A stretch of 64,000 bases of DNA from assembly GCA_964036195.1 (NCBI GenBank), contig OZ038454.1:2790001-2854000 (forward strand). Direction: 5' to 3'. The notes below the pieces were generated by a model. The model had not been told where the DNA came from, searched no databases, and saw only the letters and a program-made list of their open reading frames with translations. Below, piece after piece: positions 1 through 53,900 of this stretch. This DNA comes from Sphaerolaimus hirsutus. Taxonomy: Eukaryota; Nematoda; Chromadorea; Monhysterida; Sphaerolaimidae. The stretch's first letter is position 1, and each line of letters starts with the position of its first letter. The position numbers and the translations under genes were made by a program.

Positions 1-3000
1 GCGTTGGGTTTCAGCGGTGGTTTTGGCAATCGCCCGATTTACCGCTTCTGCGCGATCCTTCTCGCTTTTGTCCAGACGCTGCCTGAGGGATTTTTGGGGT
101 TTTTAAAAATGGTTTTGAAGTTGTTGTTGTTGTTGTTGTAGTTTGAATGGGCGCACTACGCCCAAGATTCCGGTGGTCGCAAGCTCTGTCAAGTGTAGTG
201 TCAAACGACACGTAAACTGTCAATTACCATGACAAATGTCATATAGTGTCAAATGCCATGCAAAGTGTCAATTGTCATGTCAAATGACAATTGGGTATCC
301 AAATACAGACCCATATGTGAACATAGCATCTAGATACAAAAACATAAGATATGGATACAAGAAATTGCATACAAAATTGACAGTTTCCATGACGTTTGTC
401 ACGACAATTGACACTGCATGACATTTGTCATCACAATTGACACTATGCTTGAATCTTGTCATGACAATTGACACTTTGCATGAATTTTTTAGGACATTTG
501 ACACTTTACTTAAACCTTTACAGCACTTGGGACTGCCCCCTGGCCAGCATTTTCCACTGTACCGGGAACTCACTTCAACTGCTCAATGTCTTTATGCGCG
601 TGGGCCAAACTGCGTAGATTTTCCGCCGACGTCTCCAGCGCCAACTTTTTCTTGATTTCCAGCTCGTCGGACAGTTTTTTCCACTTGGCGATTTCACTTT
701 TCGCTTCCAAAATCTGTTTGTTCAACTCTTCAGATTGCCTGCAAAAAAGAAAAAATATGAACCATGGTGAGTTTTTATCATATAGGAAAATAAGTCGAGT
801 GTTGAGTAGAAGTAGAAATGAAACAATACTATTTTTTAATGAATTTACTGTCCTTAAAGATTTTTGCCACTTGCGACCGACACCTAAGTGACAGGTCTCG
901 GTTAGGGTTCAAACGATGAATAGTATCGAATATCGAATACCGGATATCGACCATTTTTTCATATCGAATATCGATATCGAAAATTTTGAAAAAATATCGA
1001 ATATCGATATCGAAAATTTTGAAAAAATATCGAATATCGATATCGAAAATTTTGTAAAAATTTCGAATATCGATATCGAATATCGACCATTTTTTCGATA
1101 TATCGAACCTGTATTGTGTCCCTAATCAAAGTTATTATTTTCATTTTGAGATATTTGTGATTGATCTGATTTACTATAGTATTTTATTCAGGGGTCTCCA
1201 GGATTTTGGCCCTCGCGGGGGCTGGATAGATAGCAAATCGCTCCTCCGGAGGGATAGATAGCTGGAAAAATTTTCTGGGGGGGGCTGGGGGGGCACAATT
1301 TATAGGCTTTTTCAAGGTTAAGAAGGCAGAAAGGGGAAAAAATCGCTAATAATCAGTTAAAAGTAGCCAAAAGTAGGTATAAAATGGCTAAAAATAGGTA
1401 TATAACCATGTATATAGGCGGAAAGCACGAATTTGAAGGTGAAAAACTATAAAAAGGTGCGAACATTAGTGACTTTGAGCGAAAATTGGGGCAAAATTTC
1501 TCAAAAACCACTCCAGATCGATAGATAGCTGAGCGATTTGGGGGGGGGGTCTTTTGGGGTAGTAGCCAAAAATTTTGCCTCGGGATAGATAGATAGCTGA
1601 GCGGCCTCCGGGATAGATAGATAGCTGGCCGATTTGGGGGGGGCAGCCCCCCCCCCCTAGGAGACACCTGATTTTATTTGATGAGTAAAACTACAATATT
1701 TATAATGTCATTTTTGTTGGAGTGCTAAATTTGAAGCCTGAAAATGCTGATATGTTGTTTTTTGCAACATGCATTAAGCAATTCAGTTATAAGTATGAAC
1801 TGTAATATCTACCAATTGTTGTTTGCCTGATACACTTTATTCATCGTGTTTTTCTACCATTTTCTACTTTTGACTGATGTAAACCTTTTTAAAATCACTT
1901 GTACCATTCATATTTCAGCAGAGATGATTAACCATGTGTGCAACCACATGAAAATACAATAAGCTGCTTGAAATTTGCCTTGCTATACCAAAAGAAAATT
2001 GCAATATCGAATATCGAAAATATCGAATATCGACCATTTTTTAGTATCGAATATCGAATATCGATATCGAGGTTCCATATCGTATCGATATCGAATATCG
2101 AGTTTCAGAAAAAAATATCGAATATCGATATCGAAAAGTCATATCGTTCGAACCCTAGTCTCGGTCGCGAAAATTTTTCCAATCACCCTGAAACTTTCAC
2201 TCTAGTCTTTTACTGAACATTTGACATTTTTCACGACATTTGACATTATTTTGAAACTTGACATGACATTTGACAGGTTCTGGTAGTGGCCCGGACCTAG
2301 ACTCGATCCCAAAATCCTCAAATGTCAAGTCAGCCTCGATCTAGGTCTCAAAAAGTAGTTCTAGTTAAATCACCAGTCACCCACCTGTGTGCAGCGTCCA
2401 ACTCAGCCTTGAGATGTTGGTCAGCCTCGCTTTTCTGCCGCTGCTGCGCCTCCCGCTCAGAAGAGTCCTTCTCCGCCGCTGCTTCCAGTCTGCGTTGGAA
2501 AAGTGCCAAAAGTGGAGTTTGGGTTGGGCACATTTGGGTGGGATGGGATTGAGTTTTGGATATTGAACATTTTTTTGATGAAAAGTGGTTTGGTTGAGCA
2601 AATTCCGCAAATTGAGAAATTGGAACGAAAATAAATAAAAGTGAGAAGTGAAAAGTTGAGAGAAGTGAAGGGCGCGCACACACTAGTTGACATCGCAAAT
2701 TTGTGTCAACTGAATGTCAACTAAAAAACACAAAAAAAATCAAAACCACCACACTTGATAAAAACACAATGAAAATGAAGCGTCATGATATCAAAAAAAC
2801 TATATGCTCCATCCAGAGGAAAGTTGAAATAACGTAATTAAACAAACTTTAGTTAAACTTAGTTGACACGAATTACGATGTAGACTAGTGTGTGTGGGCC
2901 CAAGATGGGAAGTAAAAATTCGAAAAATATATAAAGTGATAGGTAAAAAGTTGAAAGAATTTACTTATTTTTTAACTTTTACCTATAATCTTACTTCTAT

Positions 3001-5042
3001 TTTTAATCCCCTTTTAAATGTTTACTTCGCATTTCTAATTTCGTGTTTTTTTACTTCTCAACTTGTGGAATTGACCCCACGGTATTGCACACAATTCCTT
3101 CTAGAGGGTGCACGAAAAATGGGTGATTTCGAGAAAAAAAAAAGATAATCTCAGATTTATAGATTTCTGTAGCTTTTTTAAGGTTTATAAATGTTAGATC
3201 AAAACCAACCGCTTCACATTTTCCTCCTGCTTCTGAAAACTTTCTTCAGCCAGTGCCAATTTTTCTTTTAAATCTGAAATTTGACTTTTATCTTCATTGA
3301 TGGACGCCTCCATTTCAGCCAACTTTGCGGATGTTTCTTGCATTTTCTGCAAGTGAAAAGAATTTTTTTGTTAACCCCGGTCGTGAAATCCGCAAGTGGA
3401 GAAATAAAAAATATATGAAAAGTGAAGTTATGTATCAAAAATAAAGGTAAAGTTTTAAGTAAAATGGCAAGTAGAAAGTAAGCGATAAAGTAAATGGCAA
3501 GACTAGACAGACAAGGAACCTCTAAAAGATTTGTTTTTACTTTTTATTTGTCATTGAACTTCTCACTTCTCAATTTACTTTTCTTTACACTTTTTACTTC
3601 TCATTACAAATCTGTTTTTTACTTCTCCACTTAACACTTCGAAATTGACACCAGAAACAATTCACATAAACGTTAAAAAAACCATAATCTCAACAACACT
3701 TTTCCAACCTTTTCGAGGCCACTTTTTTCTTCCCTCAGCTCGTCGATTTGGTGGTTCATCTGTTTTTTGTGATCGTCATGAACACCTTTCATCGATTTTA
3801 TCAACTCCTCCTTGAGCATCAGGGCTTTTTCAGATTGTTCCTTTGCATTTTTCGCCTTCGAAAGTGAATCTTCTAATTCGGAGCATTTGCTTTCCAATTC
3901 GATCAGGCGAAGGCCTGGAAATGGATAGTTTTTTAAAAAACGACAAAGTTGGAGTAATTTTTTTAAAATAATATTGTGGTGTTTTTTAAAAACGACAATC
4001 ATGTGTTTTTGTGTGTGTTTTTAAAACAACAACCATATTGTATTTTTAAAAAACAACAATATGGGTGCTTTCAACAAAAAAAAACAATATTGGAGTGTGC
4101 TTTTGATTTAGTAAAATGTCAGGAGTGAAGATAGATTTCGATTAAAACCGGAATGTTTACATTTTTTTAGTAAAGATTTGGAACATCATTTCACAGCACT
4201 ACATTAGTGATTTATTGAGAAATTTGCAATATCTTTTGTCCAGGGAAATTATTTTCGATAGTGCTTTTCCGTGAAAGAAGTTGGTCATATAGTAAAGCCA
4301 TAAATAATAATAATGATGTATGCATAGCGAAAATCCAGTTCCGAAAATAAAATAAAAATACACTTCCATCACCCCGTATCAAATTTTTTTTTTACAAAAA
4401 CACGGAATTTCGAACAATGACCGAAAACCAGGGGTCTCCAGGATTTTGGTCCTCGCGGGGGCTGGATAAATAGCAAATCGCTCCTCCGGAGGGATAGATA
4501 GCTAAAAAAATTTCTGGGGGGCTGGGGGGCACAATATATAGTGTTTTTCAAGGTTAAAAAGGCAGAAAGGGGAAAAATTCGCTAATAATCAGTGAAAAAT
4601 AGCCAAAAGTAGGTATAAAATGGCTAAAAATAGGTATATAAGCACGTATATAGCCGGAAAGCACGATTTTGAATGTGAAAAACTATAAAGAGGTGCGAAA
4701 ATTAGTGATTTTGAGCGAAAATTGTGGCAAAATTTCTCAAAAATCACTCCAGATAGATAGATAGCTGAGCGATTTGGGGGGGGGGGGGGGTCTTTGGGGG
4801 TAGTAGCCAAAAATTTTGCCTCGGAATAGATAGATAGCTGAGCGGCCTCCGGACAGATAGCCAGCTGGCCGATTTGGGGCAGCCCCCCCCCCCCCTAAGA
4901 GACCCCTGCCGAAAACAAGACAAAATGTCAACTGACCCTCGTCGCCGGTACCCTGTGCAGTGGCATTTTCACTTTTCTGTGCATTTACTTCGCTATTAGC
5001 ACTATTAGAGGTCTCCGGCCCAATTATTGGTGCTTGTTCCAT
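1..5042 (-). CDS. Coiled-coil protein gene, 5' part (six exons, runs off left edge)
   Basis: Six in-phase exons read on the minus strand: 5042-4937, 3914-3709, 3346-3210, 2489-2385, 738-574 and 82-1. They total 801 nt, or 267 codons, with no stop. Introns start GT and end AG at every junction (donors such as GTCAGT, GTTGGA, GTTGGT, GTGGGT, GTGAGT). The ATG at 5042 opens MEQAPIIGPETSNSANSEVN, a polar, probably disordered leader. From about residue 37 the protein is a nearly uninterrupted heptad-like stretch rich in E, K, Q, L and A (for example LIELESKCSELEDSL, then KLAEMEASINEDKSQISDLK), the signature of a long coiled coil. I see no membrane segment or catalytic domain in the visible part. 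I do not recognise the family; a golgin-like, tether or cytoskeletal protein is possible but unproven. Introns hold transposons, including a hAT element at 4429-4908 and nested ones at 903-2157. A 5' non-coding exon is possible, since TTCTCAG stands just upstream of the ATG. Confidence 0.8.
194..550. mobile_element. MITE-G-like fragment with TGTCAA/TTGACA words
   Basis: Repeated TGTCATGACAATTGACACT words, ending GGACTTGGGACTGCCCCCTGG, the right end of the MITE-G family. The left end is not clear. Intron of the coiled-coil gene. Confidence 0.6.
903..2157. mobile_element. hAT-like element, TAGGGTT ends, TATCGA core
   Basis: Ends are TAGGGTTCAAACGAT and ATCGTTCGAACCCTA, flanked by a perfect 8-bp duplication GTCTCGGT (895-902 and 2158-2165). 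Interior next to both ends is iterated TCGAATATCGATA. The element carries a second hAT element at 1189-1670. It lies in the intron between exons 4 and 5 of the coiled-coil gene. No transposase, so non-autonomous. Confidence 0.92.
1189..1670 (+). mobile_element. hAT-like element, CAGGGGTCTC ends, poly-G core (nested)
   Basis: Starts CAGGGGTCTCCAGGATTTTG and ends GGAGACACCTG, with a perfect 8-bp duplication ATTTTATT (1181-1188, 1671-1678). The core has GGGATAGATAGCTG repeats and G and C homopolymers of 7-11 bases. It was inserted into the older TATCGA element at 903-2157. Confidence 0.93.
2670..2903. mobile_element. MITE-B (about 230 bp, CACACTAGTTGACATCGCAA ends)
   Basis: Left end CACACACTAGTTGACATCGC, right end ACTAGTGTGTGTGGGCCC. 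The family is recognised by internal AACAATGAAAATGAAG and TCATGAT words. It lies within a MITE-H-like copy and in an intron of the coiled-coil gene. Confidence 0.8.
2905..3100. mobile_element. MITE-H-like remnant
   Basis: GGAAGTAAAAATTCGAAAAA on the left mirrored by TTTTTTACTTCTCAACTTGT and GGAATTGACCCCA on the right. Confidence 0.5.
3365..3655. mobile_element. MITE-H-like copy, diverged
   Basis: TCCGCAAGTGGAGAAATAAA on the left, CTTCTCCACTTAACACTTCG then TTGACACCAG on the right. In the intron before exon 3 of the coiled-coil gene. Confidence 0.6.
4429..4908 (+). mobile_element. hAT-like element, CAGGGGTCTC ends, second copy
   Basis: Highly similar along its length to 1189-1670, with perfect 8-bp duplication CCGAAAAC (4421-4428, 4909-4916). 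It sits about 28 bp downstream of the first coding exon's donor in the coiled-coil gene. Confidence 0.93.
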
Positions 5043-5741: not shown

Positions 5742-6352
5742 TTCAATGGCCCTACACACATTAAATTTAGTTGACAACCGAAACTTTCAAAACTGATAAA
5801 TCTGTTTTAAACATTTTTGAGTACCATAAAGAGGAGTCTGTCAACTACTGGTGAAGGAGATGAATAGTGATGGAAAAAGCGCCAGGTGCCAAAGCGCCAT
5901 GGCGCTTTTGTGACCCCCGACGCCACAGGAACAGGCCAAGCGCCTTCTTGCTTTGGCGCCAGCGCCATGGCGCTTTTGTGACCCCCGACGCCACAGGAAC
6001 AGGCCAAGCGCCTTCTTGCTTTGGCGCCAGCGCCATGGCGCTTTTGTGACCCCCGACGCCACAGGAACAGGCCAAGCGCCTTCTTGCTTTGGCGCCAGCG
6101 CCATGGCGCTTTTGTGACCCCCGACGCCACAGGAACAGGCCAAGCGCCTTCTTGCTTTGGCGCCAGCGCCATGGCGCTTTTGTGACCCCCGACGCCACAG
6201 GAACAGGCCAAGCGCCTTCTTGCTTTGGCGCCAGCGCCATGGCGCTTTTCCATCAGTAGAGATGTAACAGATTCATTTTTGATAAACTAAAATGTCTTCA
6301 AAAGATATTTATCAGTTTTTGAAATTCCGGTTGTGAACTAAATAGAGAGGCA
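5742..6352. mobile_element. MITE-I-like palindrome hosting the GCGCCATGGCGC element
   Basis: CCTACACACATTAAATTTAG and AAAACTGATAAATCTG on the left, TTTATCAGTTTTTGAAATTC on the right; 5865-6258 is inserted between. Confidence 0.7.
5865..6258. mobile_element. hAT-like element, TAGTGATGG ends, 68-bp tandem GCGCCATGGCGC core
   Basis: Ends TAGTGATGGAAAAAGCGCC and its complement. The flanks GAGATGAA and GAGATGTA differ at one base. The interior is five direct copies of a 68-bp unit (5893-6232), each with the palindrome GGCGCCAGCGCCATGGCGC. The long open frame across it is a repeat artefact. It is inserted in an older palindromic MITE. Confidence 0.88.
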
Positions 6353-8145: not shown

Positions 8146-8760
8146 TAGGGTTCAAACGGGATTGACTTTTCGGGATCGGGATCGGGATTCACTTTTTGAG
8201 ATTTCGGGATCGGGATCGGGATCGGGATTGGGGTTTCGGGATCGGGATCGGGATCGGGATTGGTTTTTTGAGATTTCGGGATCGGGATCGGGATCGGGAT
8301 TGGCCGGGATTGGGGTCACGGGATCGGGATCGGGATTGGGATAGGCATTTTTCCGGGATCGGGATTGGGTTCTAGGGATAGAGATTTTGGCCATTTTTCT
8401 GGCATTCACAGTTGTTCATAAAGGTCTCAAAACACTGTTGGATGCCAGAAAAGTGGCATAAAATTGACGCTGGGGGTTTGCATCCACTTTTTTGCATGCA
8501 AAAACGTCATTATTTCACTTTTTATAATTTCCACTAATTTTTCCGGGATCGGGATCCCGGACTTGGGAGTTTCTCGGGATCGGGATCGGGATTTGAAAAC
8601 TTTCGGGATCGGGATCGGGATCGGGATTGGTATTTTTGAGATTTCGGGATCGGGATCGGGATCGGGATTGGGGTTTCGGGATCGGGATCGGGATCGGGAC
8701 TGGTAAATCCCGGAATTTCACGGGATCCGGGATCGGGATCGGGATCCCGTTTGAACCCTA
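8146..8760. mobile_element. hAT-like element, TAGGGTT ends, GGGATC core
   Basis: Ends TAGGGTTCAAACGGGAT and ATCCCGTTTGAACCCTA with a perfect 8-bp duplication GTGGCATG (8138-8145, 8761-8768). The interior is mostly CGGGATCGGGAT iterations in two blocks separated by about 170 bp of ordinary sequence. The apparent Ser-Arg and Asp-Pro repeat proteins here are artefacts of the hexamer. Confidence 0.93.
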
Positions 8761-16388: not shown

Positions 16389-19300
16389 CTAAACCACCCT
16401 ATGTCTCTCAGCGGCCGCATCTGCGCAGTTACGCAGCTGCGCGTGCAATTGCTTCTGGAAGTTTGAGCTGCGTCGTTTTCTGGCGCGCGTCACTTTGCAG
16501 GCTGGCGCGGACGCCTGGTTCTGGGGTTGGCGCCTGGCGCCAGGAGCGCCGTCAGACTTGGCGCTGCCCGCGCCGCTGTTGGCTACCTGTTTGGGGGGGG
16601 GGTCATGCTCAGGGTGTCAAATTTCCGTAGGCAAATTCCGTTTCCGTTTTCCGGCAAGTGCAAAAAAATTCCGTTTCCGTTTTCCGGCAAGTGCAAATTT
16701 TATTCCGTTTCCGCTTTCCGCAGGCAAATTTTTCCCGTTTTCCGGCAAGTGCAAATTTTTTTTCCGTTTCTGTAAACATTTTTGTTGACACCCTAGTTAT
16801 GCTGGTCGTCGGGTAGATTGGCCCCAGAAACGCCATTTTACATCGACACCAAACGTCAACTGGTTCCGTTCCATTTTCAAAGCTTGAGTTCGTTCACAAG
16901 TCAGCGAGCTTTGAATCAGGATCAGCACCAGTTGACATTTGGTGTCGGTGTCGATGTCAACTAGCGTGTGTGGGCCCAATAGGGTCTAATCAAAGCCGAT
17001 CCGTAGTCCCCACAAAATGGTAGAATTTTCCAGTGACATTTGCGGCGCACACACTAGTTTACACTTGTGCGTCAACTCAGATTTCGGCTTCACCTGTCGC
17101 AGAGCGATGTTCCAACGCACTTGCCGTAATATTTATAGTTTAAAATTGCCGCATGTGCATTGGAAAATCGCTCTGCGACACGCGAGACAGAAATTTGAGT
17201 TGACACACGCATTTGACAACACACATTTGTCAACTAGTGTGCGGGCCGCCATTCCTGACAACCCAGCCGTGTTTGAACCGTAAAGTAACAATGGGCCTGA
17301 CAACCCACACACTGGATGTCAACTGAATTCGTGTCAACTGAATTTAAGTGATACTGTGATTTCAACTTATGTATCTGATAGAGCATAGTCAATTTTACAT
17401 CATGACACTTCATTTTCATTGTTCCTGTTTAGTGTGATGCTTTTTACAAACTTCCTGTTTTATTCAATTGACACTGAGTTGACGTGAATTTGCGATGTCA
17501 ACTAGTGTGTGTGGGCCCTATGGAACAATATTACTCTTTGATCTTTAAAGTTCCAAAAGACTCCATATCGATACTTGACGGTCAAACTTGAAAAGTGAAA
17601 GACTTTTTTCAATTCAACAATCAATATAACCCAAAGCACAGCATACCTTTTTGCACATGTTCCACACCCGACCCAAGGGTGATTTCATCTGCTGTCGATG
17701 TTTTTCAATACTCGCGTCCGGCTCGATTACGTAAGTGCTGCCAGTCCTAAAATCAAAACAAGTGTGTATGGCCCCGCACACGCTAGTTGACATCGACACC
17801 AAATGTCAACTGGTGCCGATCCCGATTCAAAGCTGGCTGACGATTCGACGAACGACGTTCAAACGCAAGCTTTGAATTGGGAACGGAACCAGTTGACATT
17901 TGGTGTCCATGTCAACTAGCGTGTGTAGGGCCAATATTACCGTTGAAAAAATGTCAATTCAGATATTAGTTGACGGGTTACAGGGTAATTTTCAAGGGTA
18001 AATCAATGGAGTTTCAAAGCAATGGAATAATTATTGAAATGTACATCTGGACATCATTCGGCGACACGTCAACTAGATAAAATCTGAATTGAAACCAGTC
18101 GGCCCAGTTGACATACGATCTTATTGTCAACTGGTGTGTGTAGGACCAATATAACGCAAGGTGGCGACAAAAATATCCACCCAGTTGAAAAAATAAAGAT
18201 AAACTAAAAAAACAACGAAAAATAGTAAATTAAAAAAAAATTATAACAAACCTATGATTATGTCTAAGCGACGGGGATGACGCAGTTCTCAATTTCGACG
18301 CCCGATTTTCCCTGTAGGGTGAATCGAACCGCGACCGGCCGCGGTTATATTGCGCTGGCGCCTGGCGCTTGGCACCACTCGCTGACGCCAGACTCTTGGC
18401 GCTAGCTGGCACGCTGCCAGAGGGTCCGGCGCACAATGGGGTGGATTCCACGGGTGCCTGAGACAGGGAGAAGTTGGAATGTGGGTTATTTTTTAATAAC
18501 TAGATGACATAAGAATACTGAGATACTTCCCTATCAAGATCGGGTTGCACGATATAAAAATATTTCATGAAGTTTGCCGATTCACATTTAAAAAATGGAA
18601 AAATACGCTCAATAATTTTCCTCACAGTACATTGCTAAATATCATTATGCGATAATTGAACAAAGATTCGATTCATCAAAACATGACACAATTATGCGCA
18701 AAGCATAATCCCGCCCAGTAAAACAAACAAAAGTCAACAATAGTTTGAAAAACCTGCGTGGGGCGCGGGCGGTCGGCTGACATGAATGGATTTCGTAGAA
18801 CTGCATCCTCACGTTTCGTGTCTCCGCATTCAAACTGGAAATGAACATATTCGTATTTATCAAATAAATAAATACAAAGAAAATTGCAGGGATCTCCATC
18901 GGGGAGGGGTTTCTATCCCCTGCCCCACCCAAATCACTCAGCTGTTCATGTGAAGCAACTTTTCGGCTGATTTTTCCCCCAACTTTCACTCAAATTTCCA
19001 TCAAACTTGGATCCATTTTGCTAATTGTCACCTACAAAATCGCTATTTTCAGCTATAAACATGGTTATCAACATTCTTATCTATTTTTACTCTTCCTGCC
19101 TTCTGCCTTTTAACCTTTCTGCCTACTAACTGCCTGAAATGCTATCTATCCGGCCCCCGCACGGGTCAAAATCCTGTACACCCCCCAGGAAAAAAAAGAC
19201 ACCCGCCAAGTTAAACCTCACCTTTGCACAACCAGGCTCGTTCCTAGGCCGGACAATTGTGCGCGAACGCAATTCATATTTGACAGTTTCTGGCGGCTTT

Positions 19301-22300
19301 TTGTCTGCCGCATTTTGNNNNNNNNNNNNNNNNNNNNNNNNNNNNNNNNNNNNNNNNNNNNNNNNNNNNNNNNNNNNNNNNNNNNNNNNNNNNNNNNNNN
19401 NNNNNNNNNNNNNNNNNNNNNNNNNNNNNNNNNNNNNNNNNNNNNNNNNNNNNNNNNNNNNNNNNNNNNNNNNNNNNNNNNNNNNNNNNNNNNNNNNNNN
19501 NNNNNNNNNNNNNNNNNACTACTGGCAGTGAAGTGATGGCTGACTTTGTGATGTAAAGTGTTTTAAGTTTAACGTGTTTTTTGAAATTGAGTTTTTGAAT
19601 TTTTTGTAAAAGTGTGTGTGGCACAGTTATTTATGTAGAAGTGCATGGAAAAGGTGACATAATTTGTGTTTTTGGCGTGATTGTACAAATGTTATCCGCT
19701 GACCAAAAATGAATAAATGTTGAACATGTGTTTATGAATTTAATTTATGGTGCTGATTCCAGTTAGCTGACATGTCACTCAGCAGATTATCACACGAATG
19801 TCCATGCAATTTACCTAAGTGTAAATTCAAAGCACTTGATACAATCGGGTGGGCGCGCCAGCGCCATCCCTCGCTGCCGAGGGAGGGCGCAAGCGACCCA
19901 CCCATAATATGGTCGGACACACCAAAATGCGGAAATAGCAAATTTAAAATCGCAATAACTTCGGAACGCAATGCGCTAGTGCAGAACCGACTGCACCATT
20001 AAAAAGCCCGTGTCGAAAAGTACCACCATGCAAATTTTCACATACAACGGTTGAGTTCGGAGGAAGTTATTACGGATTTTCTTTTTCAAGTAGTGTTGTT
20101 GTCGTTGTTCTTGTTGTTCTTGTTGTTCTTGTTCTTCTTGTTCTCCCGACAATCTTCAAACTGCAATAACTTCCTTGAAACACGACCGATTTTCATGGTT
20201 GATGGCTCATATGAAAGAGCATATGATGCCATTTCTTATTTTCGGGAATTTTTGTCACAGGCTCCGCCCACTTTGGGACGGGATCTGTTTGAAATTTTCA
20301 AACCTCGATAAATTTAAAATTTGAATACAAATGCGGCAATAAAAAAAATTTGTTGGTGTGCGCCATGACTAGAGCTTTCGAATGAGCTAATTTTTGGCGA
20401 TTTTGGTACAGATTTACAAAAGTTATTCAAGTTTGCTTATTTTGTGTAATATGCGCAAACATGCCTGAACTACTGCTTGATGTGATACTGAGCATGTGAC
20501 CTTGCATGGTGATTACTATCAGGTCATAAATGTCTAGTGGTTAATGTCAAGTCAAATGTCAAGTTATAAATGTCAAGTCAAATGTCAAATGATAAATGTC
20601 AAGTGATAAATGTCAAGCAATAAATGTCAGGCAAAATGTCAAGTGATAAATGTCAAATGATAGATGTCAAGTGATAAAATATTAAGTGATAAAATATCAA
20701 GTCAAATATCAAGTAATAAATGTTAAGTGGTAGATTTCAAGTGAAATGTCAAGTGAAAAATGTCAAATTATAGATGTCCAGTGATAAATGTCAAGTGAAA
20801 TGTCAAGTTCAATGTCAAGTGATAAATGTCAAGACAAATGTCAATTGATAAATGTCAATTGATAAATGTCAAGTGATAAATGTCAAGTGATAGATGTGAA
20901 GTTATAAAATATCAAGTGATAAAATATCAAGTCAAATTTCAAGTGATAACTGTCAAGTCAAATGTCAACTGATAAATTTCAATTGAAATGTCAAGTTTAA
21001 TGTCAAGTGATAAATGTCATGTCAAATGTCAAGTCAAATGTAAAGTGATAAATTTTAAGTGAAATGTCATGTCAAATGTCAAGTCAAATGTCAAATGTCA
21101 AGTGACAAATTTCAAGTGAAATGTCAAGTGTAATGTCAACTCATAAATGTCAAGTAAAATATCAAGTCATATGTCAAGTCAAATTTCAAGTGATAAATGT
21201 CATGTCAAATGTCAAGTTTAACGTCAAGTGATAAATTTCAAGTGAAATGTCAAGTGATAAATGTCATGTCAAATGTCAAGTCAAATGTCAAGTTTAATGC
21301 CAACTGATAAATGTCAAGTGATAAATATCAAGTGATAAATGTCAAGTGATAGATGTCAAGTTATAAAATATCAAGTGATAAAATATCAAGTCAAATATCA
21401 AGTGATAACTTTCAAGTCAAATGTCAACTGGTAAATTTCAACTGAAATGTCAAGTTTAATGTCAAGTGATTAATGTCATGTCAAATGTCAAGTCAAATGT
21501 CAAGTGAAAAATTTCAAGTGAAATGTCAAGTAATAAATTTCAAGTCAAATGTCAAGTTAAATGTCAAGCTTAATGTCAAGTGATAAATGTCATGTCAAAT
21601 GTCAAGTCAAATGTCAAGTTTAATGTCAACTGATAAATGTCAAGTGATAAAAATCAAGTGATAAATGTCAAGTGATAGATGTCAAGTTATAAAATATCAA
21701 GTGATAAAATATCAAGTCAAATATCAAGTGATAACTTTCAAGTCAAATGTCAACTGGTAAATTTCAACTGAAATGTCAAGTTTAATGTCAAGTGATAAAT
21801 GTCATGTCAAATGTCAAGTCAAATGTCAAGTGAACAATTTCAAGTGAAATGTCAAGTAATAAATTTCAAGTCAAATGTCAAGTTAAATGTCAAGCTTAAT
21901 GTCAAGTGATAAATTTCAAGTGAAATGTCAAGTTTAATGTCAAGTGATAAATGTCATGTCAAATGTCAAGTCAAATGTCAAGTTAAATGTCAAGTGCTCA
22001 AATATCAAGTCAAATGTCAAGTTATAAATGTCAAGTTGTAAATGTCAAGTCTAAAGTCAAGTGAAGTCAAATGTCAAGTGATAATGTCAAGGTGAATATA
22101 AAGTGATAACTTTCAATTGAAATGTCTAAGTCAAATGCCAAGTGAATAATTTCAAGTGAAATGTCAAGTAATAAATTTCAAGTGAAATGTCAAGTCAAAT
22201 GTCAAGTTAAATGTCAAGCTTAATGTCAAGTGATAAATGTCATGTCAAATGTCAAGTTTAATGTCAAGTGATAAATGTCAAGTCAAATGTCAAGTTTAAT

Positions 22301-31300: not shown

Positions 31301-34300
31301 AAATCGTATTCGGGGAAAACACGCATGTCCGGTTTCGGTTGTGCACAGGGGTTTTGTAGGGGCCAACACTCCAGCTATCTATCTGGAGCGATTTTCGAGA
31401 TATTTTGCCACACCTATTGTCACTCAAAATCGCTAATTCTACACCAATTTCACCTTCAAAATCACTAGTCCAACCCCCCCCCCCCCAAACCGCTCAGATA
31501 CCTATATATCCCGGAGGGAAAATTTTGGGCTAGCTATCTACCAATCTGGAGCGATGATTGAGAAACACGACCCCAACTTTCGCGCAAAATAGCTATTTTT
31601 CATACCGTTTTATAGATTTTCATCTCCAAAATCACTAAGTCATGCGTCTAATTGCTGATTTTCAGCTATTTTTAGTAGTATGTGCTTATATACCCATTTG
31701 TCACCTACTTTTAGCGATTTTTCTCCCTTTTATTCCTTCTATGCCTATATATTGAACCACCGCGAACCCCACCCCCCAGAAAATTTTTCAGCTATCTATC
31801 CCTCCGGAGAAGCGATTTGCTATCTATCCAACCCCCCGAAGGGTGGAAATCTAGAAGACCCCTGCCCACCGCTCATTCTACCCCCCCACCCAACCTGCTT
31901 AGCGATGGCGGCAAACTTCAAAACATGCAGCGTCTCGCCGTACTCCTCCGTGGCGGGCGACACGGTGACTAGCATGTGCAGCCGGTGCGCCTGCGGCCCG
32001 TCCAGGAACGTGTGGCAGACCCGCGTGATGCAGCTGTCTCGGAAGGGCACTAGTTCACGCTGCTGGCTAGGCAGGTTAGGTCTGGGGGGGGGTTGGGGGT
32101 TATTGCATTGGATGGGAGGGGTTTTTGCATTGGGTGGGGGGGGGGGGTTGGTAGTGATTTGTTACTAGCAGGGTTGTGACAAGTACCTTTGGACCGGTTT
32201 AGCCGTACGTTGTATTGCTTGGGGTTACGAATTTGTTGAATTATATTTTACATGCATAAATCCAGTGATGATCGGGTTCAGTATGTGGGGGGGGGGTGCG
32301 ACTCATTTCCAGAAAAATCGAAATCCCATAACAAAAATCCAAAACAAACTCGCACCTCTGATTGTGCCTCAACGCAGCGATGCACTTCCGCAAAGCAAAA
32401 AGGCTGGAATTTATTGCGCAAGTTTCCTTGGCCCTGTCGCCGCCAGCGCGCGACCACCTCTCGCAACCCGCCAAATCCACTATGGCTAGTCTGTTAAGAA
32501 AATGTGCAAAGTTCGAAAACGAGCTGTTTGGAAGGATGGAAATTGACATTTAAAGGGACCCGTTGTCGTTGCACAATATTTTACAATGAACTTTTGAAAA
32601 ATTAGTAAACTCATAAATCAGCTTCGAACGCACTTGAGTTTACTGGAATAAGTAATTTTTACTCTCCGTCAACTGCAGTTGACGAACCAGTAAACTCAAA
32701 CGCCATTGAATGTCTATTTATGAGTTAACTGTTTAGTTTACTCGCAGTAAACTCACCGAGACATTCGCTCGGCGCGCAAATCCTCACCCAAACTGCGCAC
32801 AGCCACCAGACGCAGTGTGAAAATGCAATGCCTGCGTAAAAATTACTATTTTCGCATTTTTTAAACTGCAAGCAAATATAAATTGGACTAAAACTAAGGT
32901 GAGTAGTTGATTGCGAATCTGAAAAAAATAAAGGGAAAAATAAAGAAAAATTATAATCTTCAATATGAATGGAAGAATGTTGGCGCACTGCCAATGAGAC
33001 ATTTAACCCATGGTATCTTAGTCAGCAAAAACTCCAGATTACCAACGGGAAAATATCCGACTGGACGGAAATCAGTAAAATGCGCCATTCTCAGAAAGTG
33101 ATTTAATTAGCATGAATTGTAGATAGATGAATTATTAGAAAAATGGCAACACCGATATCAAATAGCAGCTAGAAACGAAAGCCCAAGCAGACAACAAAAA
33201 GCACCAGAACAAAAACAAAACAAAAAAAAATAAAACAGAAAAAAAAGAACAAGTGTCGGAAAAAAATAAAAACGAACCCTCGACTGGATGTGGCATTTAG
33301 CGCGGTGCCGGCGAAACTCATATTTCTCATTCCCAGTGACACCAGGCGAGAAATTTCATCGGCACTGGTGACAAAAACTTCTCTCAAACCTGGAAAGTCA
33401 AAATAAAAGTAAATTTATAAGTGAGAAGTGAAATGGCACGTAAAAACGTCAAAAACGTTTTGTGAAGCGATTTCCTGTCACTCGCCGTTTCACTTAACAA
33501 TTTACTATTCTTTTAACTTTTCACTTATCACATAAATTATTTTTTCCGTCTCCACGTGGGGAATTGGCACCAGCGAATGGGCGTAGAAATTGCTAAAAAC
33601 AACAACTAGGAAATGTAAAAAGTCCAAGACATACAAAATGGAAAGTCTGGCTTTGCCGTTAACGGTATGGTCACTTTCAGAAATTGCGGTAAACGGTACG
33701 GTAAATTTCAGAAATTACGGTAAACGGTACGGTAAATTTAAAAAAATGCGGTATACCGTACGGTAAATTACCCGAAAACGCGGTGCGGTACGGTAACTAA
33801 ACAAACCCTTCAAATAAGCCACCCTACTATCATCCTCAGCCAATTTGAGCGCGGTCCGTTTTTGTACACCCCTAGCGCCACCATTTTGGCCCTTCAAAGG
33901 CACTAGCAAATCGTAGGCGGTGTCGTTGTAGATTTCCACAAGCGACACCCACATCAAATATCGAATATTTGAAGTTTGCGTTGTTGCCTCCGAATTGGCT
34001 GACGGCTCAGAATCTGAATATGGGCAGTGAACGTTTTGAATGAAACCCACTGATGTTTTTGTCAATTAGATTATATTGAGTGATTACTTTACAATTGAGG
34101 CGTTCACTCTTTAAAAGTCAATAACACCAAAAATTTCGAGAATTGGTGACATTTCTCAATATTTTCTGAATTTTTTCAAAGTCACCTGTCCCTTTTGACA
34201 TTAACAATGCGGAAGAATTTAAAAAAAATTTCCAGCAAAATGTCGATAATCACTCTATAATCAACATTCATAACTTGACGATAGTCAACCTGCTCGACCT

Positions 34301-37300
34301 GTTTGTTTCTCGACGTCGATTTTTGGATTTATCGACTCTTGGACATTTAAATGCGAATACTGAAGTCATATATTCGGATTTTGATCACATTCAAACACAC
34401 CATTGAGTGAAATCAACGATGATGTAGATGCACTGGATGCTTGCGAAGGCGCTCGACACAGCGAGTCGTTGACATTCTGCATTTCACAATTTTTTATCCC
34501 AAATTTTTACCACAAGATTAGATGGAATTCGATGTTTTTGGGATTAGAAAGTCATGGCATGGGGCCAGACAATGGCCCCACACACACTAGTTGACATCGA
34601 CACCAAATGTCAACTGGCTCCGATCCCAATTTCAAACTTTCATTTGAACGTCGTTCGTGAACCAGTTGACGTTTGTTGTCGATGTCAACTAGTGTATGGG
34701 CCCAATAGAAAATTCCAAACATAGCAAACATAACGTACTCCTTCAAAAAAAACTCTGTCAAAAAAAAACAACCAAATGCCAATTGCGCAATGGGCATGCA
34801 TGTTGTTAGGGTTGGGACGATATGACTTTTCGATATCGATATTTTTTTCTGAAACTCGATATTCGATATCGATACGATATGGACCCTCGATATCGATGTT
34901 CGATATTCGATATTTAAAAATGCTCGATATTCGATATCGATATTTTCGATATTTTGCTTTTGGTATAGCAGGGCATATCTCATTTGGCATATTGCATTTC
35001 CATTTGAACACAAACCCAACTGATCATCTCTACTGAAAAGTAGGTGATACAAATTTATATGGCATACAATGGTCAAAATGAGAAAATGATTAAAAATGTG
35101 ACAGATGTGGTAAGTAAAAGGTTCCAGCCCCATTTATAGGTGCCATGCCATTGTGCCATTGATGTTTCCATGGTGTAAGTAGCTATTAAACATACATATA
35201 CTCTTATGTGAACATCTGAGAGAGCATTTGCACAAGATTTGATGCAGTCACAAGTGCTGGAACAAAAATACCTGTCATGTGAGAACAAAGTGCGCGCTTG
35301 CGCGCAAAATTTGTTAAAATTGCTTATGAAATCGCCTTCTAATAGTGCCATTCCTGGCTTATTTGAAGTCAAGCCCAGGGAGTATAGAATATCGAAAATA
35401 TCGAAAAAATGGTCGATATTCGATATCGATATACGATATTTTTTCAAAATTTTCGATATCGATATTCGATATGAAAAAATAGTCGATATCCGATATTCGA
35501 TACGATATATCGTCCCAACCCTACATGTTGTCAAAAGTCATGTAAAATGCATTGGAAAAAAGTCATGTTTTATTTTTTTGAATGATTTTTGTGACATTAC
35601 ACAGAACTTTCAACATTCTGCGCGTGACATTTACATCTCACAGCATCTGGGAGTCACCTCAGTAGAAAATACATTTTCAGTCAAAACTCACCGCAGCGCG
35701 CTCAGCCCACTGCAACGTATCACAAGCCAGTTTTAGCTCATTTTTGCGTTCGGCGCTTGTCAACCGTTGCACCTTGGCGTTCATGGCTGGCTTGTAAAGC
35801 GGGTCACTTAGAATTTGACCAGAAATTGAGCTGAGAAGCGTGTTGGTGCACTGGGGGAGAATGCCGGGGGATGTGCCGCTACCTGGGAAATATTCAAATT
35901 GATTTTTTGATTGATATTTTTGATATTCAAATTGATTGATTTAAGTTGTGTATTTTTGGAACGTTAATTACGGAAAGGAAAATGATGGTTTACGCCATTT
36001 AAAGGCGACTATGAAAACTTCACGATCGCAATAACTACGCCTTTCGAAAAAAAATTACAAACTGGTCTAGGGTTGGAAAAAAACGTTTTTTTAACTCGAT
36101 GTTTTTGTTTTTTTTAAAACGTTTTTTTTAAAAAGCTCCCAGATATGACCTTCTGTCAACATATATAGGTATATCAGACAGTGGCAATACTCTGTGATGT
36201 TATATATGACCATATAATGTCTGTGGAGCCATGGGATAGCATTATAAGTGGTGATTTGTGTCAAAAATATCCATTTTTCGTCGACATATCGTTTGTATAT
36301 CGCCTTATAGTCGAATGTTCATGACTTCAGGTAAAGTTTGGCACGGAATAGTGATCAAACAAGGTTATAAAACGAGGTTGTTACTTTGGGAGTGAAGTTA
36401 CACACTGTGGAGTTACATGGAAGCACATTACCTCAATATTATATACTACAGCAACATATGACGGCTAGGGTTGGCCGATGTTTTTTTTAAACGTTTTTTT
36501 TTAACGTTTTTTTTTAAAAACATGACGTCCGAAATGTTTTTTTTTTAAAAACATCGACCGAAATTTGCAGTACTAAGCACTAGGTATTTTGCAAAATTTT
36601 TGCGCGCAAGCGCGCAATTTCACACACAAATTGACATCGGTGGTTGTTTTCATTGGTTTTGTGGCATTTTTAGTATCAAAACATCCATTTCTATGTGCTA
36701 CCATGGGTGAATAAGCCGACATATGTTGCTGTAATATATAATATTGAGGTAATGTGCTTCCATGTACCTCCACAGTGTGTAACTTCACTCCCAAAGTAAC
36801 AACCTCCTTTTATAACCTTGTTTGATCACCATTCCGTGCCAAACTTTACCTGAAGTCACGAACATTCGACTATAAGGCGATATACGAACGATATGTCGAC
36901 GAAAAATGGATATTTTTGACACAAATCACCACTTATAATGCTATCCCATGGCTCCACAGCCATTATATGGTCATATTTAACATCACAGAGTATTGCCAGT
37001 GTGTGATATACCTATATATGTTGACACTAGGTCATATCTGGGAGCTTTAAAAAACAAACAAAGTATCCATTTCCATGTGCTACCATGGGTTAATAAGCTG
37101 CCATATGCTGCTGTACTATATAATATTGAGGTAATATGCTTCCATGTACCTCCACAGTGTGTCACTTCACTCCCAAAGTAACAAGCTCCAGTATAACCTT
37201 GTTTCATCGCTATTCCATGCCAAACTTTACCTGAAGTCACGAACATTTGACTATAAGGCGATATACGAACAATATGTCAACAAAAAATGGATATTTTTGA

Positions 37301-40300
37301 CACAAATCACCACTTATAATGCTATCCCATGGCTCCACAGCCATTATATGGTCATATATAACATCACAGAGTATTGCCACTGTCTGATATACCTATATAT
37401 GTTGACACAAGGTCATATCTGGGAGCTTTTAAAAAAAACGTTTTTTTTTAAAACATCGAGTAAAAAAAAAAACGTTTTTTTCCAACCCTAATGACGGCTT
37501 ATTAACCCATGGTAGCACATAGAAATGGATACTTTGATGCTAAAAATGCCACAAAACCAATTAAAACAACCACCAATGTCAATTTGTATGTGAAATTGCG
37601 CGCTTGCGCGCAAAAATTTTGCAAAATACCTAGTGCTTAGTACTAAAAATTTCGGTCGATGTTTTTTATATAAAAAAAACATTTCGGACGTCATGTTTTT
37701 TAAAAAAAACATCGGCCAACCCTAAACTGGTCTATCCGAAACATTTCCAGACAAAATTTCAGAGAAAAAAATATTGGACATAATACTTTACATGGTCGGA
37801 AATGGTAAACGTTTTAAACGTTCCTGCGTTTTTTTTAAATGAGAAAACGTGAAGAAATTTTCCCAAAAATACGCCGCAACGCAAAATCCATTATATTAAT
37901 TCTCGAAATGTTTCTCCAAAAACATACCTTGCAGCGTGTACGTTTTGCCACTTCCAGTGACCCCGTACGCAAACAAAAGTGCATTCTTTCCCGCTATCAC
38001 ATCAGTCACCAGTTGGCTCCCTGCCAAGTCGAAAACGTCACTTTGAGACGAACTTTCATCGAAAACGTGATGAAATTCGAATTTTTGCGGCAAAACATTC
38101 GTCACAGCTGAACTAGTGGACGATTTTCCGGTGGAAATCGGCGGTTGAGCTATGAGACTGCGATTATCCGACTGGACACTGAGACAAGATTCCTGGAAAA
38201 TGGGAAATTTATAGTTGTTTGTTGAATTTTGGAATGATGGCAATTGAAATTTTCGTTCAGAATAAGCTGATACTGTAAAATAAGACGGTGATATTTTTAT
38301 TTATACCCGATGACAGAGGTATAAAAAATACACCTGATCGAGCACATTCAAAAAATTTTCTGCACTTTCTAGAAATGTACTCACACACCACCGAAAGAAA
38401 ACATTGCACATACAGCCTTCTTCCTTTCTACCATATCACATCTGAACAAAAAACAAACAATTCTCGCTTCACGTTATTGTTCAAAAAGTTAAAGGCAAAA
38501 ACAACTTCGGGCCTTTATCACACACAATGCCCAGGAAAAACCCCAGCCCCAATTTCACACCAAATAACCCCCCCCCAACCTTCAAAGAAACCCTCTCCCT
38601 GTCATTCAAAGGGCGGACCCGCAGAAACGCTCGCACCCTGTCCTGGTCAACGGGGGGCGGCTGTGCACTGCCGTCGGTCGACTCGGGGTCGGGCTCGTCG
38701 AATTGCAACACGTGGCGCGTGTGCTGCACCTAGAGGGGGGTTACGGTAGGGTTACATTGGAGTTGTGATGGGAAGGGTGGGGATAGGGATGGGAAAGCGT
38801 TTTGTAAATGAAAACTTTATGAAAAAAGCACGCTCTTTTCAAAAAATGTCCAGATATTTTTAAAATTTGTTTATTTACCGTACTGAAAACGGGCTGCACT
38901 TTGCACATTTCGACCTTCAAAAACCACTATTTCCTCTATTAATCACTTCACAGAAAGTTTTAAGGAATTTGCGATACGTGAATGAAACATAATCCCTTTA
39001 AACTATTTTCACATAATTTTTCCGTTTTCACATCAGTAGAACCGCGTGTAAAAACTGTTCAGAAATAAATTTCCCAGTGATTTCCCACAGGGACGTGGTC
39101 AGGATTTTTGAGTGGGGGGGTGCGAATTGCATACGGAGCCCGGCGAACGGGGGGCGCCCCCCCCTAAAATTTGGTACCTGTGGTAAAGGAATGGCGCCTT
39201 GGCGCCAGCGCCATTCGTAGGCGCCACGCCATGGCGCCATTGGCGTTGGAATTCGCGCCAAATACTGCTGTTCATGTATGTATTTTACATACATAAACAG
39301 CGATGGGGACACATTTTGAGTGCATTTTGGTCCTAAACCATAATTATGAATCAAATGTACTGTGCGACGACGAAATGCGCACAAAAATTTTCAGAACCAC
39401 CGATAAAATCGATTGATGAAAGTGCCATTTCAGGCATATTTTCTTGTCCGACCCGGGAAATCCCAATCTCTTTTCCCAAATAATCTTATAAATCTCGTCA
39501 AGTACCACCAACTGACATGCTCAGCCAGACTCCACCTATAGTCTCTGAATTGCTTGCACAACTTGTCTATCTCGGGCACCAGGAAGCTCGGCCGCGGCTC
39601 GATGCTCGCCGACGACACGCTGGCATCGGATGCGCCGGGCGCAGTGCCAATGCTGATGAGGGGTGCGGTGGGCGTTGGGGAAATTAAATGTTTCAATCAA
39701 AAATGTCACTCAAATTGATGGTCTGGTTATTGTGACATGTGAATGAAATATATGTACGATTCACAATAAAGAGCACTTAAATTCAAGATACCATTCCAAG
39801 TTACAAGCTGTGACTAGGGTTGGAAAAAAAAAACGTTTTTTAACTCAATGTTTGTTTGTTTTTAAACATCGCTAGCCGCTCGTCTTGCCGATGTTCAAAT
39901 GTACATTCCAATATTTGTTCTTTTTCATACATAGCTAGCCGCTCTTCTTTATGTCCGCACGCACACTTGAAAACTTTTCCGTGACACATCAACACAAATC
40001 TGAATTGACACGGAAACCAGTTGACACCCAGCGTGCAGTGTCACTATTGGCAAACTTCCAAACGAAAACGCCTTACTTTTCCGTAACATAAATCTCAACT
40101 ACAAAACCGACCTATATGCGGGAACCACGGGAGTGGCTTCTTCATCCACATCCGACGGCCGCCCGCTTGTCTACGTAATTAAAGTTTTGCTAATTAGGAA
40201 ATATTATTGCTTGAAACCAGATTTATGCCGAGAAGCTGCCTGAGTTCTTGAAAACTACTATTGTTTTAGTACTGCATAGGGTTCAGACGGGATCCCTATG

Positions 40301-48960: not shown

Positions 48961-49539
48961 GTTATGAATCGCAGCCGCAAAAAAGAAAAAATCAGCTGTT
49001 CGATCGAAGTTCGTCTCCCGTTATTGATTTGATCCCAAAAAGTAAAAGGAACAGTTGAGTTGACAAAAATCTGCTGCAACAATGGCACAGTTCTAGTTGG
49101 AACTCGGTTTGGCAACAAAAGCACACGGGAATTTCCCTTGTGCATACTTCTAGTGCGTTTGTTTGATGGGGGTACTAATTTTTTTAAGCTTGCTAGATAA
49201 CACAGTGTGGGATGCCCGTATTTAAAATTTATCATAATAATCAGTTATACTCCGGTTACTTTACACCCTGCACGCGTGGTTCCCGCTGGAAGTGTGCCAA
49301 CGATGGTTAGCACGTGCGAGTTTCATAAAAAGATGACAAAATTGATTGTTGTTATAATGTTATTCATTAACATATTCACATCGATGAATTTTTTGCATCT
49401 TTTTACGGAAATCGCATGACTTGACAATCATTGGCACGCTTCCAACACGAGACATAAATCAGTGCGACGGCAGAGTATCATGTACGCAGAGTATATCCTT
49501 TATCACGAGGCTTAATCCACGAAGTAGCTCAGAGGTCAA

Positions 49540-50852: not shown

Positions 50853-50918
50853 GACAAAACATGTATTTACATATAACAAATACCCCCCCCCCCAACGAAA
50901 ACGCAGAAACCCTTCAAA

Positions 50919-53900
50919 ATGGCGTTCGTCCGAAGTGAAAGCCCGGCCAGCCCGGCACCCTTACCCGTACAACTGGAATCGATCTTAACACCACTGGAAC
51001 TAGACCTACTCTTTGACAATGACCAAAGCGCTGACAATGTCCAGCCCCTTGCCGATCACGGGCGCCAGCCTGTATGGCTTCAGCGAGGACTACAGCCCGC
51101 CCGGCGCCAACGTGACTTTGCTGCAGGCGCTCCAGCCCAGCGCCGCGGATACGCTCCCTGTTGTGCCGTCGGTTGTTTTTTTATGTGGTCGGGCTTCCAA
51201 CGGGATTGGGGTTTCGGGTTAAGGGTTGCAAAATCCCGGAACTTTTCGGGATTCGGAATCGGGATCCCGTTTGAGCCCTATGAACCGTATTTCCTCGAAT
51301 TACCCCCGGGGTGTTTATTTTTTGAGAGTGGAAATTTTGAGGGGGGTATTTCGAGGAAATACGGTATGTTTGGGAAGACTTATGTGGGTGGTTCAGTGTG
51401 GACTTGTGTTTAGTTGACAACTGAAACTGATAAATCTGGTATGGACACTTTGAGTTCGCCAGAACGAACCATTTTTTTATAAAACCCCTTAAAGCAGAAT
51501 TAAAGAAGATATAAATTTGTGAACATATATAAAAAATATCAACATATTTATCAACAAAATCAAATAAATATCAATAATATCATCAACCCCACAGGCAACC
51601 GGGTGCTGTGTTTGTGGCTGCTGACCAAAATTCCCCCAGCGCTGGTGACATTTCATTTCCAAACACTACTCCTTTTCCAACACTATCTTACAATGGCAAT
51701 TTTGACGATTTTTCTGCAATTTCTGGCAATTATTTTGGTGATGATGGCGGGAAGTATTTCGGCTCTGATTTGGGTGGGGATTTGTGTACGCTGGAAGCTG
51801 GGGCTGAGCGAGATTCGGGATTTTTGGGGATCATTTCAAGTGAGTTTTGCGGACGCCCGCACCCCCAATTGTCATCTTTATTAAGCGCCAGCTGGTGCAG
51901 TCTTTAAAGTGTAATGTAAAGTGGAATGAAAGATGTCAATCAAAATAAAAAAGAAAAGATTTTGTATCAGAATTTTTGACATTGTGCTTGACAGTTGACA
52001 CTTTACAGGGTACGGGACTGCTCCCTGGTGCACAAATCGATTTCCACGCGCCGAATTGCAAGTCAGGGCATCGTTCGCAGAGGATGTTCTATTTGCGCGT
52101 GCTAATTGCTTCCCAATGGCCCAAAAACCTCATTTTGGTGCTAAACCATTCCAAATTCCCAGGCGAGTCTTGGCTGGAATCCATGGACTACGACATTGAC
52201 AGTACCATCTCTGCACCACCACAAAACCACACGGCGTGCACGCGTGACCAAGTTCGAGACCATGATGGTTCTGTGACTTTTTGCACTTCTCCATTGGGCA
52301 GCAGCGATGATGAGATTATCGACCCGGTTGGATCCAGTTCGCCGCTGGGCCACAGATTGAGTCCAGTTGACATTTTGAGGGTGAGTTTTGTTTTTTAGGA
52401 GTTTGTTGTAGGGTTCAAACGGGACCAGTTTTTCGGACCGGGACCGGGACCAGAAATTTTCTAATGTCGGGACCGGGACCGGGACTGGGGGGTCGGGACC
52501 GGGACCGGGACCGGGACTGGCTTTTTTCAATTGTCGGGACCGGGACCGGGACTGGGGGGTCGGGACCGGGACTGGGATTTGCCGAACCAGGTACCGGCAC
52601 CGCGGTATTGTTTGAAATTTATTGGTATGTAATATCCAGCCAATGTTGTTCCACACACCTCAACTGTGTGAAAGAACACTCTCAATGTATTAGCCTTTTC
52701 TTATAACATTATTCAAGCAGTATTCCATTGCCATCTTCACTTGAACTTGTGAATATATGATGAAACGCAATGTACGCAGGATTTTTTTGGGAGGGGGGGC
52801 GGCGCCAGTTGTAGGCGCCAGCGCCATGCCAGCATTGGCGCTGGCGTTGGCGCCAACGTCTATAATATAGGTATCTATATATACCTGTATTTCGTACTAG
52901 AATCATGTTGGGGACCGTTCTAACGCTGTCACATTATGGAAAAATACGTAGTAATCATTGGCTGGGTATTTGCGCGCTTGCGCGCAAAAATTTTTTAGAT
53001 GTCCCTACAAAATCGCTTTAGAAAAGTGCCATTTCTGGCAAAAATTTTTGAAAGATACGTTTTTTCCATCCCTTGTCGGGACCGCTATAAAATTCCGGGA
53101 CCGGGACTGGGTGGTCGGGACCGGGACCGGGACCGGGACTGGGGTGTCGGGACCGGGACCGGGACCGCCCCAGTCCCGACTTTTTGCCGAACCATGTACC
53201 GGGACCGCGGTCCCGTTTGAACCCTAGTTTGTTGTGATGGTAGGGTGCTGGAGTTGTTATTGTGGTTCTGTATAGAACAGATGGTTATCTCTATTTTCGA
53301 GTTGTTCACTTTTTGCTAACTAACCATAAAATCTGGAAGAGTTACAGATCTTTTCGATGCGCGATAAACATAAATATTTACCTCTAAAACACGGCCGTTC
53401 TATTTCTCTTCTAAAAAAGCTATTATGTTAGCCGCCCTCGGTACCCCCCCCCCCAAAAAAAAAATTATATACCGTATATCCCACTCAGATATCCTCAGAT
53501 CAATGTGCACGTTTGTCATAAATATTCACACAGGAGATCCGCATGGAGGCAGCCGCATTCGAGCAGCGCGCAGCCATTCAAGCGCCAAAAATCATCGTTC
53601 CCAATTCTGTGCAAGTCGATGACCAGTCGTCAACGGGTGCCGATGAACAGTCATTTTTGGAAAGTGACAGTGACTATGAAGAGGTAGGTTTGGTTGAAGA
53701 TGTTTTTTTAAAATTGTGTGTTTTTAAAAATGTTTTTAAAAAAGCTGGTGGCCGCCGACCTTGCTGTTTTTCCCACTACTTTTGTTGGGTTTCTGGGTGG
53801 TGGTATCGCATTTGATGCAAAATGTGTACCAAGTGCACCCCCCTTATCTTCGGTGGTAAATAGTTAAAGAAATGTACATATATTTTTCTAAAAAAGCACG

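Follow-up and report, generated by a model that had tools for sequence, protein, structure and literature searches.

Do several different simple repeats enclosed by one kind of transposon end mean that a single tip has repeatedly gained new satellite cores, or does each repeat belong to the tip beside which it stands? This question is raised by a 64,000-nt stretch of the Sphaerolaimus hirsutus genome (contig OZ038454.1, positions 2,790,001-2,854,000; hereafter the window, to which element coordinates refer), in which five hAT-like elements had been named in an initial annotation. All five are real and flanked by identical 8-bp target-site duplications (TSDs). We read them, with a rough probability of 0.75, as miniature inverted-repeat transposable elements (MITEs) that represent deletion derivatives of diverging hAT transposons, their hexamers being lineage-specific subterminal repeats with a predicted function in transposase binding. 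The five elements and a sixth one, nested within the fourth, are listed below.

903..2157, minus strand: type A (CGATAT) hAT MITE, 1,255 bp; TSD GTCTCGGT; 36 CGATAT in its ends, shuffle maximum 12
8146..8760, plus strand: type B (CGGGAT) hAT MITE, 615 bp; TSD GTGGCATG; 40 CGGGAT, shuffle maximum 9; right-end palindrome CGGGATCCCG
34807..35523, plus strand: type A2 hAT MITE with CGATAT repeats and tip TAGGGTTGGGACG, 717 bp; TSD CATGTTGT; 32 CGATAT, shuffle maximum 7; right-end palindrome ACGATATATCGT
36068..37724, plus strand: type D hAT MITE with tip TAGGGTTGG and AAAAAACGTTTTTT at its left end, 1,657 bp including the nested copy; TSD AACTGGTC; palindrome present
36466..37490, minus strand: second type D MITE, nested in the first in opposite orientation; TSD ATGACGGC
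52409..53226, plus strand: type C (CGGGAC) hAT MITE, 818 bp; TSD GTTTGTTG; 28 CGGGAC, shuffle maximum 4; right-end palindrome CGGGACCGCGGTCCCG

Types A, B and C are named after the hexamer (CGATAT, CGGGAT and CGGGAC, respectively) behind the 13-bp tip TAGGGTTCAAACG, while A2 combines CGATAT with the tip TAGGGTTGGGACG and D denotes the TAGGGTTGG type at 36068 and 36466. Throughout the genome (348 Mb, 762 contigs), TAGGGTTCAAACG occurs in 15,514 exact copies (7,752 + 7,762) compared with 8 (5 + 3) for the reversed control, showing that tips are shared beyond chance. The bases following it are ATAT in 3,241, GGAT in 8,581 and GGAC in 2,549 cases, summing up to 14,371 or 92.6% of the exact tips. 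The initial observation of a tip being kept next to differing repeats thereby extends to thousands of copies. Within the window itself, the motif TAGGGTTS is found at 14 sites with 2.4 expected, a number reached in 0 of 100 shuffles. The elements at 903, 8146 and 52409, annotated as having common ends, indeed carry the same tip type, but the tip at 2157 (TAGGGTTCGAACG) departs from it by a single base. The elements at 34807 and 36068, given as further examples with differing cores, are genuine as well; however, the former has a different tip and the latter, together with its nested copy, represents a fourth type with AAAAAACGTTTTTT.

The comparison was extended to 20 stretches of 10 kb from contig C1, which were picked around listed tips and are consequently enriched for them. 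Together with the window they yielded 41 candidates whose duplications contain no more than one mismatch: 7 A, 1 A2, 12 B, 4 C, 2 D, and 15 elements of other kinds. Two-letter duplications were dropped by the script, hence the C element at 52409 was added separately; a third D element was taken from locus L029, resulting in a set of 28 elements (7 A, 1 A2, 12 B, 5 C, and 3 D). Under this search, itself allowing one mismatch, perfect 8-bp TSDs flank 7/7 A, 4/4 C and 9/12 B elements, the remaining B elements showing one mismatch. Among three further C copies, two have a perfect TSD and one has two mismatches. The elements end in short terminal inverted repeats with tips of the TAGGG/CAGGG kind, as in the hAT superfamily, and 26 of the 28 measure 0.1-1.4 kb; insertions are present in the two longer ones (1.7 and 4.3 kb). 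Being short, non-coding, bounded by terminal inverted repeats and represented by thousands of tips genome-wide, they have the properties of MITEs. The 4.3-kb A copy at L016 was considered as a host of an autonomous element, which was ruled out: the additional sequence belongs to a second transposon inserted into it, PIF/Harbinger-like in our reading of its protein letters. Another observation concerns a type B MITE at L014 (3893-5249), in which one tip pair encloses a tandemly triplicated interior; this may be a stage on the way to a satellite array.

What connects the types beyond the tip is the layout of their ends. With both ends of each element pooled, the own hexamer is present in 6-41 copies, exceeding the maximum of 50 dinucleotide shuffles in all 25 A, A2, B, and C elements. 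Foreign hexamers of the A/B/C set are absent from the ends of the eight A/A2 and the five C elements, and a single CGGGAC is found in 10 of the 12 B elements. The repeat starts right at the inner edge of the 13-bp tip that is identical in A, B, and C; left ends read TAGGGTTCAAACG-ATAT-GACTTTTCG in A, TAGGGTTCAAACG-GGATT-GACTTTTCG in B and TAGGGTTCAAACG-GGACC-AGTTTTTCG in C, each continuing with hexamers. Behind the first hexamer stands its inverted copy, in only one of the two ends, forming ACGATATATCGT in A/A2, CGGGATCCCG in B and CGGGACCGCGGTCCCG in C, with D having AAAAAACGTTTTTT. This perfect palindrome follows the tip in 24 of the 28 elements (A/A2 6/8, B 10/12, C 5/5, D 3/3), and was found at the opposite end in none of the 28. 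It seems that the three “cores” are different spellings of a single architecture and not unrelated satellites placed between one tip pair.

B and C are set apart by one hexamer position. Across 16 B-C alignments covering 160 bp of the left end (4 of the 12 B against 4 of the 5 C elements), hexamer positions 1-5 are nearly all identical, position 6 is identical in 0-1 of 10-14 units, and identity outside the hexamers amounts to 62-73%; the aligner favors repeats and somewhat inflates identities within hexamers, which is a first point to be held against our interpretation, but the change at position 6 stands regardless, since C ends contain no CGGGAT at all. Over longer stretches, blastn matched B and C ends at 67-76% identity, and a comparable end match of A with B or C was not found, so that the link of A to the other two rests on tip, layout and protein. 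A general CG within the motif, as a possible methylation switch, was considered and rejected, since 5 of 15 families lack CG in their top five 6-mers, while in 10 at least one of the five contains it.

Tip and hexamer are inherited together. The A2 tip TAGGGTTGGGACG occurs with CGATAT in 1,185 exact genomic copies, and followed by GGAY (that is, CGGGAY) in none genome-wide, whereas TAGGGTTCAAACG is followed by GGAT or GGAC 11,130 times. In the first 3.1 Mb of contig C1, where 94 of 100 listed tips belong to types A-C and were used, 29 of 30 pairs of adjacent forward and reverse tips at most 6 kb apart consist of two tips of the same type. Both results show that cores do not swap freely between tips. 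The idea of one tip repeatedly gaining replaced cores was not borne out: the types share their architecture too, and each has its own pairing of tip and hexamer.

Protein-coding traces remain in types A, A2, and C. Within the A element of the window, in which the transposase gene reads toward the 2157 end, one remnant was recognized:

1728..1805, plus strand: remnant of a hAT transposase C-terminus, NLKPENADMLFFATCIKQFSYKYEL*; tblastn E 1.3e-5 against the type A C-terminus; translation

The hAT dimerization domain (PF05699) has 28 matches in the genome, 18 of which were examined with their surroundings. In 13 of these, a repeat array and a tip lie behind the coding end, with a motif constant for each lineage, namely CGATAT with TAGGGTTCAAACG (3/3), TTTCCG with TAGGGTGTCAA (5/5, one tip with a base change), TTTACG with CAGAGTTGT (3/3), and TTCGAA-type repeats with TAACGATGGC (2/2). 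A search with the A-type C-terminus, for which 150 places were listed and 150 of 863 candidates scored, gave an end at 10 of the 15 places read (2 A2, 2 A, and 6 TTTCCG, one of the latter tips with a base change), and no type B end at these 15. The C-terminal remnant of A2 is ~60% identical to that of A. The C element of L028 encodes EKAETFIFLQKALRQLMYQYSL, resembling ENAEMLLFLQHALKQLDYKYEL of A and reading toward the corresponding end; this C-type remnant is encoded at a minimum of 150 places with 86-100% identity, and all four that were read have C ends. Each of these three types thus has its own C-terminal remnant beside its own repeats, reading toward the end opposite to that with the palindrome, and, as judged from the translated remnants, A, A2, and C are derived from related but separate hAT transposases. 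The search for an autonomous transposase with the same tips, proposed in the initial annotation, produced C-terminal remnants for A, A2, and C but no full-length copy. An A copy at L042 was rejected as a full-length candidate: its tip starts only ~0.4 kb ahead of the C-terminal domain, which identifies it as a deletion derivative. For a parent of B, tblastn of the C-termini of A, F, and C against the fetched sequence gave no match in a B element. The catalytic RNase H-like core (PF14372) yielded no match, but as control genomes likewise gave none, this result is uninformative.

Repeated short motifs beside the terminal repeats, bound by the transposase, have been described for Ac, Herves, Tag1, Tol2, and Hermes (PMC3260210, PMC3143072, PMC10368747). 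Given these precedents, the repeats of the window are better read as diverging arrays of putative binding sites than as satellite cores, and their structure, initially suspected to represent an undescribed class, is of a known kind, namely that of hAT MITEs whose subterminal repeats are specific to their lineage. The maize Ac/Ds system resembles the present one in its 8-bp duplications and its many non-autonomous derivatives, some with transposase fragments (PMC3260210). It has 11-bp terminal repeats and AAACGG hexamers in the outer ~200 bp that are bound by the transposase, a binding that is predicted for our elements (PMC3260210). Ac/Ds has one hexamer for the family, whereas here the hexamer differs between related lineages that have the 13-bp tip in common. 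In Herves of Anopheles gambiae, CGATTCAT is repeated at both ends and was reported as critical and sufficient for transposase binding (PMC3143072); there, a single element with one motif of different sequence is concerned and binding was demonstrated, whereas it is presumed here. Hermes of Musca domestica likewise has subterminal repeats, bound by BED fingers in that element and putatively so in ours, and a quasi-palindromic pair directly behind the terminal repeat of its left end closely matches the layout described above (PMC10368747). Its motif differs (AAGT), binding is established by structure, and the part of that report available to us describes no re-spelled relatives (PMC10368747).

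Transferred to our elements, the transposase of each lineage would recognize its own hexamer through an N-terminal BED finger, while the catalytic core would handle the conserved tip. In the course of lineage divergence, hexamer and BED finger would change together with tip and layout staying in place, and units in both ends, inverted copies included, would become re-spelled as CGATAT, CGGGAT, or CGGGAC. MITEs would move best with a transposase reading their spelling, and this in turn would explain the inheritance of tip and hexamer as a unit. The re-spelling may have occurred in this genome or before separate invasions, between which one genome cannot distinguish.

Several observations weigh against this interpretation. 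A and A2 have one hexamer but an unlike inner tip, which implies that hexamer and tip can also change separately. The palindrome is absent in 4 of the 28 elements, including the named one at 903-2157, where none stands behind the tip. No transposase remnant was found in a B or D element of the fetched sequence, and 5 of the 18 PF05699 surroundings show no complete end within the stretch read. Moreover, neither a full-length transposase nor one associated with CGGGAT was found, for which reason we can only infer the recognition step. The BED domain (PF02892) has 10 matches in the genome, and none of the five read is located within a bounded element of types A-D. The motif also need not be required everywhere, considering that some maize Ds1 elements without the hexamer still transpose (PMC3260210) and that BED domains were not bound by the repeats in the right end of Hermes (PMC10368747). 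Finally, the families CAGGGTTGG and CAGGGGTCTCC have AT-rich or GATA repeats instead of such hexamers, and homogenization of units by repeat turnover could mimic selection. Concerning the BED matches themselves, the one at L059 was rejected: a lone tip-like TAGGGTTCGAACG and TAGGGTTGGAACG lie nearby, with no hexamer array, partner tip or matching duplication within 3.7 kb, and from its letters we take it for a host zinc-finger gene. Six of the ten matches, one of which was read, lie within 23 kb on one strand (G000:C1:7466186-7488779), looking like a cluster of host zinc-finger genes.

Among the other explanations, separate invasions by lineages that diverged elsewhere and arrived with their own hexamers, without any re-spelling here, fare best. 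The concentration of 92.6% of exact tips in three classes is in their favor, as it leaves no intermediate spelling abundant behind TAGGGTTCAAACG. We consider this scenario rather unlikely, yet its odds overlap with those of the favored explanation, because the two differ only in the place where the change happened and not in the workings of the elements, and are indistinguishable with one genome. It is improbable, in our estimation, that the pattern arose by repeat turnover without selection, with slippage, unequal exchange or gene conversion homogenizing the arrays, spellings spreading by chance, and recognition being independent of the hexamer. The arrays are indeed simple tandem repeats with a unit number varying between copies, and the triplicated interior of the L014 element fits such a process. 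However, one spelling in both ends, in separated blocks, and in the inverted copy by the tip is not produced by slippage alone, and between A and A2 (6 of the 7 A copies, both ends) identity stays at 78-98% within hexamers while dropping to 54-72% elsewhere, though alignment favors the repeats. The model of the initial annotation, with a single transposase reading the tip only and subterminal sequence repeatedly replaced by unrelated simple repeats to give satellite-bearing MITEs, can draw on the identical 13-bp tip with the repeat beginning directly behind it, but is made highly improbable by the layout shared between types, the separate transposase remnants of A, A2, and C, the genome-wide lack of the exact second tip with CGGGAY, and the type-pure pairing of tips.

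In addition to tip and hexamer, several families share an internal box of ~70 bp (GCGCGCTTGCGCGC ... ATCGCTTTAGAAAAGTGCCATTTCTGGC), first noticed between C, A2, B, and D elements. In the window it is present at the following positions:

52971..53039, plus strand: shared internal box in the C element; related sequence in seven families
35291..35358, plus strand: copy of the shared box inside the A2 element, with 165 bp between it and the right end
36593-36617: box match in a type D element
37596-37620: box match in a type D element

With a query from the C element and a cut-off of E 0.05, 51 matches were obtained, many spanning the palindromic part only: 20 within elements, 24 outside the elements listed, and 7 from L002-L008, small loci that were dropped as duplicates of larger ones. 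The 20 matches within elements, two pairs of which overlap, come from seven of the 15 tip families (A2, B, C, D, E, M, and P). Two of the 12 B and four of the 5 C elements contain the box, and none of the 7 A elements does. All 20 matches lie 60-238 bp from the nearer end with constant polarity toward it; in A2 and C, where the direction of the gene is known, this is its 5' side. The 20-base palindromic core of the box occurs in 5,745 exact genomic copies and its reversed control in none. Found in seven families with different tips and hexamers, the box would constitute a second module under separate selection and form part of the recognition-series reading; as to its function, a promoter or a host-factor site is our guess. 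The CMITE group of Acropora corals offers a comparable case, with MITEs in tandem arrays and with tips that vary more from family to family than an internal region does (PMC2872659). In contrast to our elements, they are linked to piggyBac-like, not hAT, transposons, and the available part of that report describes no re-spelled hexamers (PMC2872659).

Further hAT-like families and repeat arrays surround these elements. One of them interrupts the A element itself:

1189-1670: hAT-like element nested in the A element; tip CAGGGGTCTCC, GATAGATAG repeats, TSD ATTTTATT

An additional copy of this CAGGGGTCTCC-tipped element is located at 4429-4908. Short family members are found at 16610-16795 (TTTCCG family, tip TAGGGTGTCAA, TSD with one mismatch) and at 59609-59889 (CAGGGTTGG family). 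At 5893-6249, a 68-bp unit containing AGCGCCATGGCGCT is present in 5.2 tandem copies with 100% identity, and repeats of this kind also occur in a hAT-like family with TAGTGATGG (60391-60622). The ACGGTACGGTAA-type array at 33653-33826, ending in GCCACCCTA and with similar sequence in L056, probably represents an end of another hAT-like family, whose tip is TAGGGTGGC. Long TAAATGTCAAGTGA-type arrays in mutually opposite orientation (20527-22473 and 24846-25580) flank an inverted-repeat region at ~22757-24540.

hAT transposases serve as gene-transfer tools and are a source of BED-finger regulators, while to our knowledge little is known about how the sequence of a BED finger sets its DNA motif. 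A similar pattern of shared tips with differing short repeats is seen in hAT MITEs of fish. Unusual in S. hirsutus are the shared box and the clean succession of hexamer spellings that one architecture shows within one genome; a literature search, being a weak one as it left subscription journals mostly outside and included no repeat database, returned no description of related hAT families that combine one tip with re-spelled hexamers. Taken as a whole, the observations permit the tentative reading, held by us at less than even odds, that hAT transposases kept the catalytic tip and repeatedly changed the BED-read hexamer by one or a few bases, both ends in step. If true, this recognition series would provide a protein-DNA code for BED fingers, and related transposons would have a way to stop mobilizing each other's parasites. 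A single genome hosting related hAT lineages with the same tip and the same layout but different hexamers, one pair of which differs by a single base at nearly every site, would make the question of BED motifs testable, and the series offers a route to study the escape of transposons from their own non-autonomous parasites.

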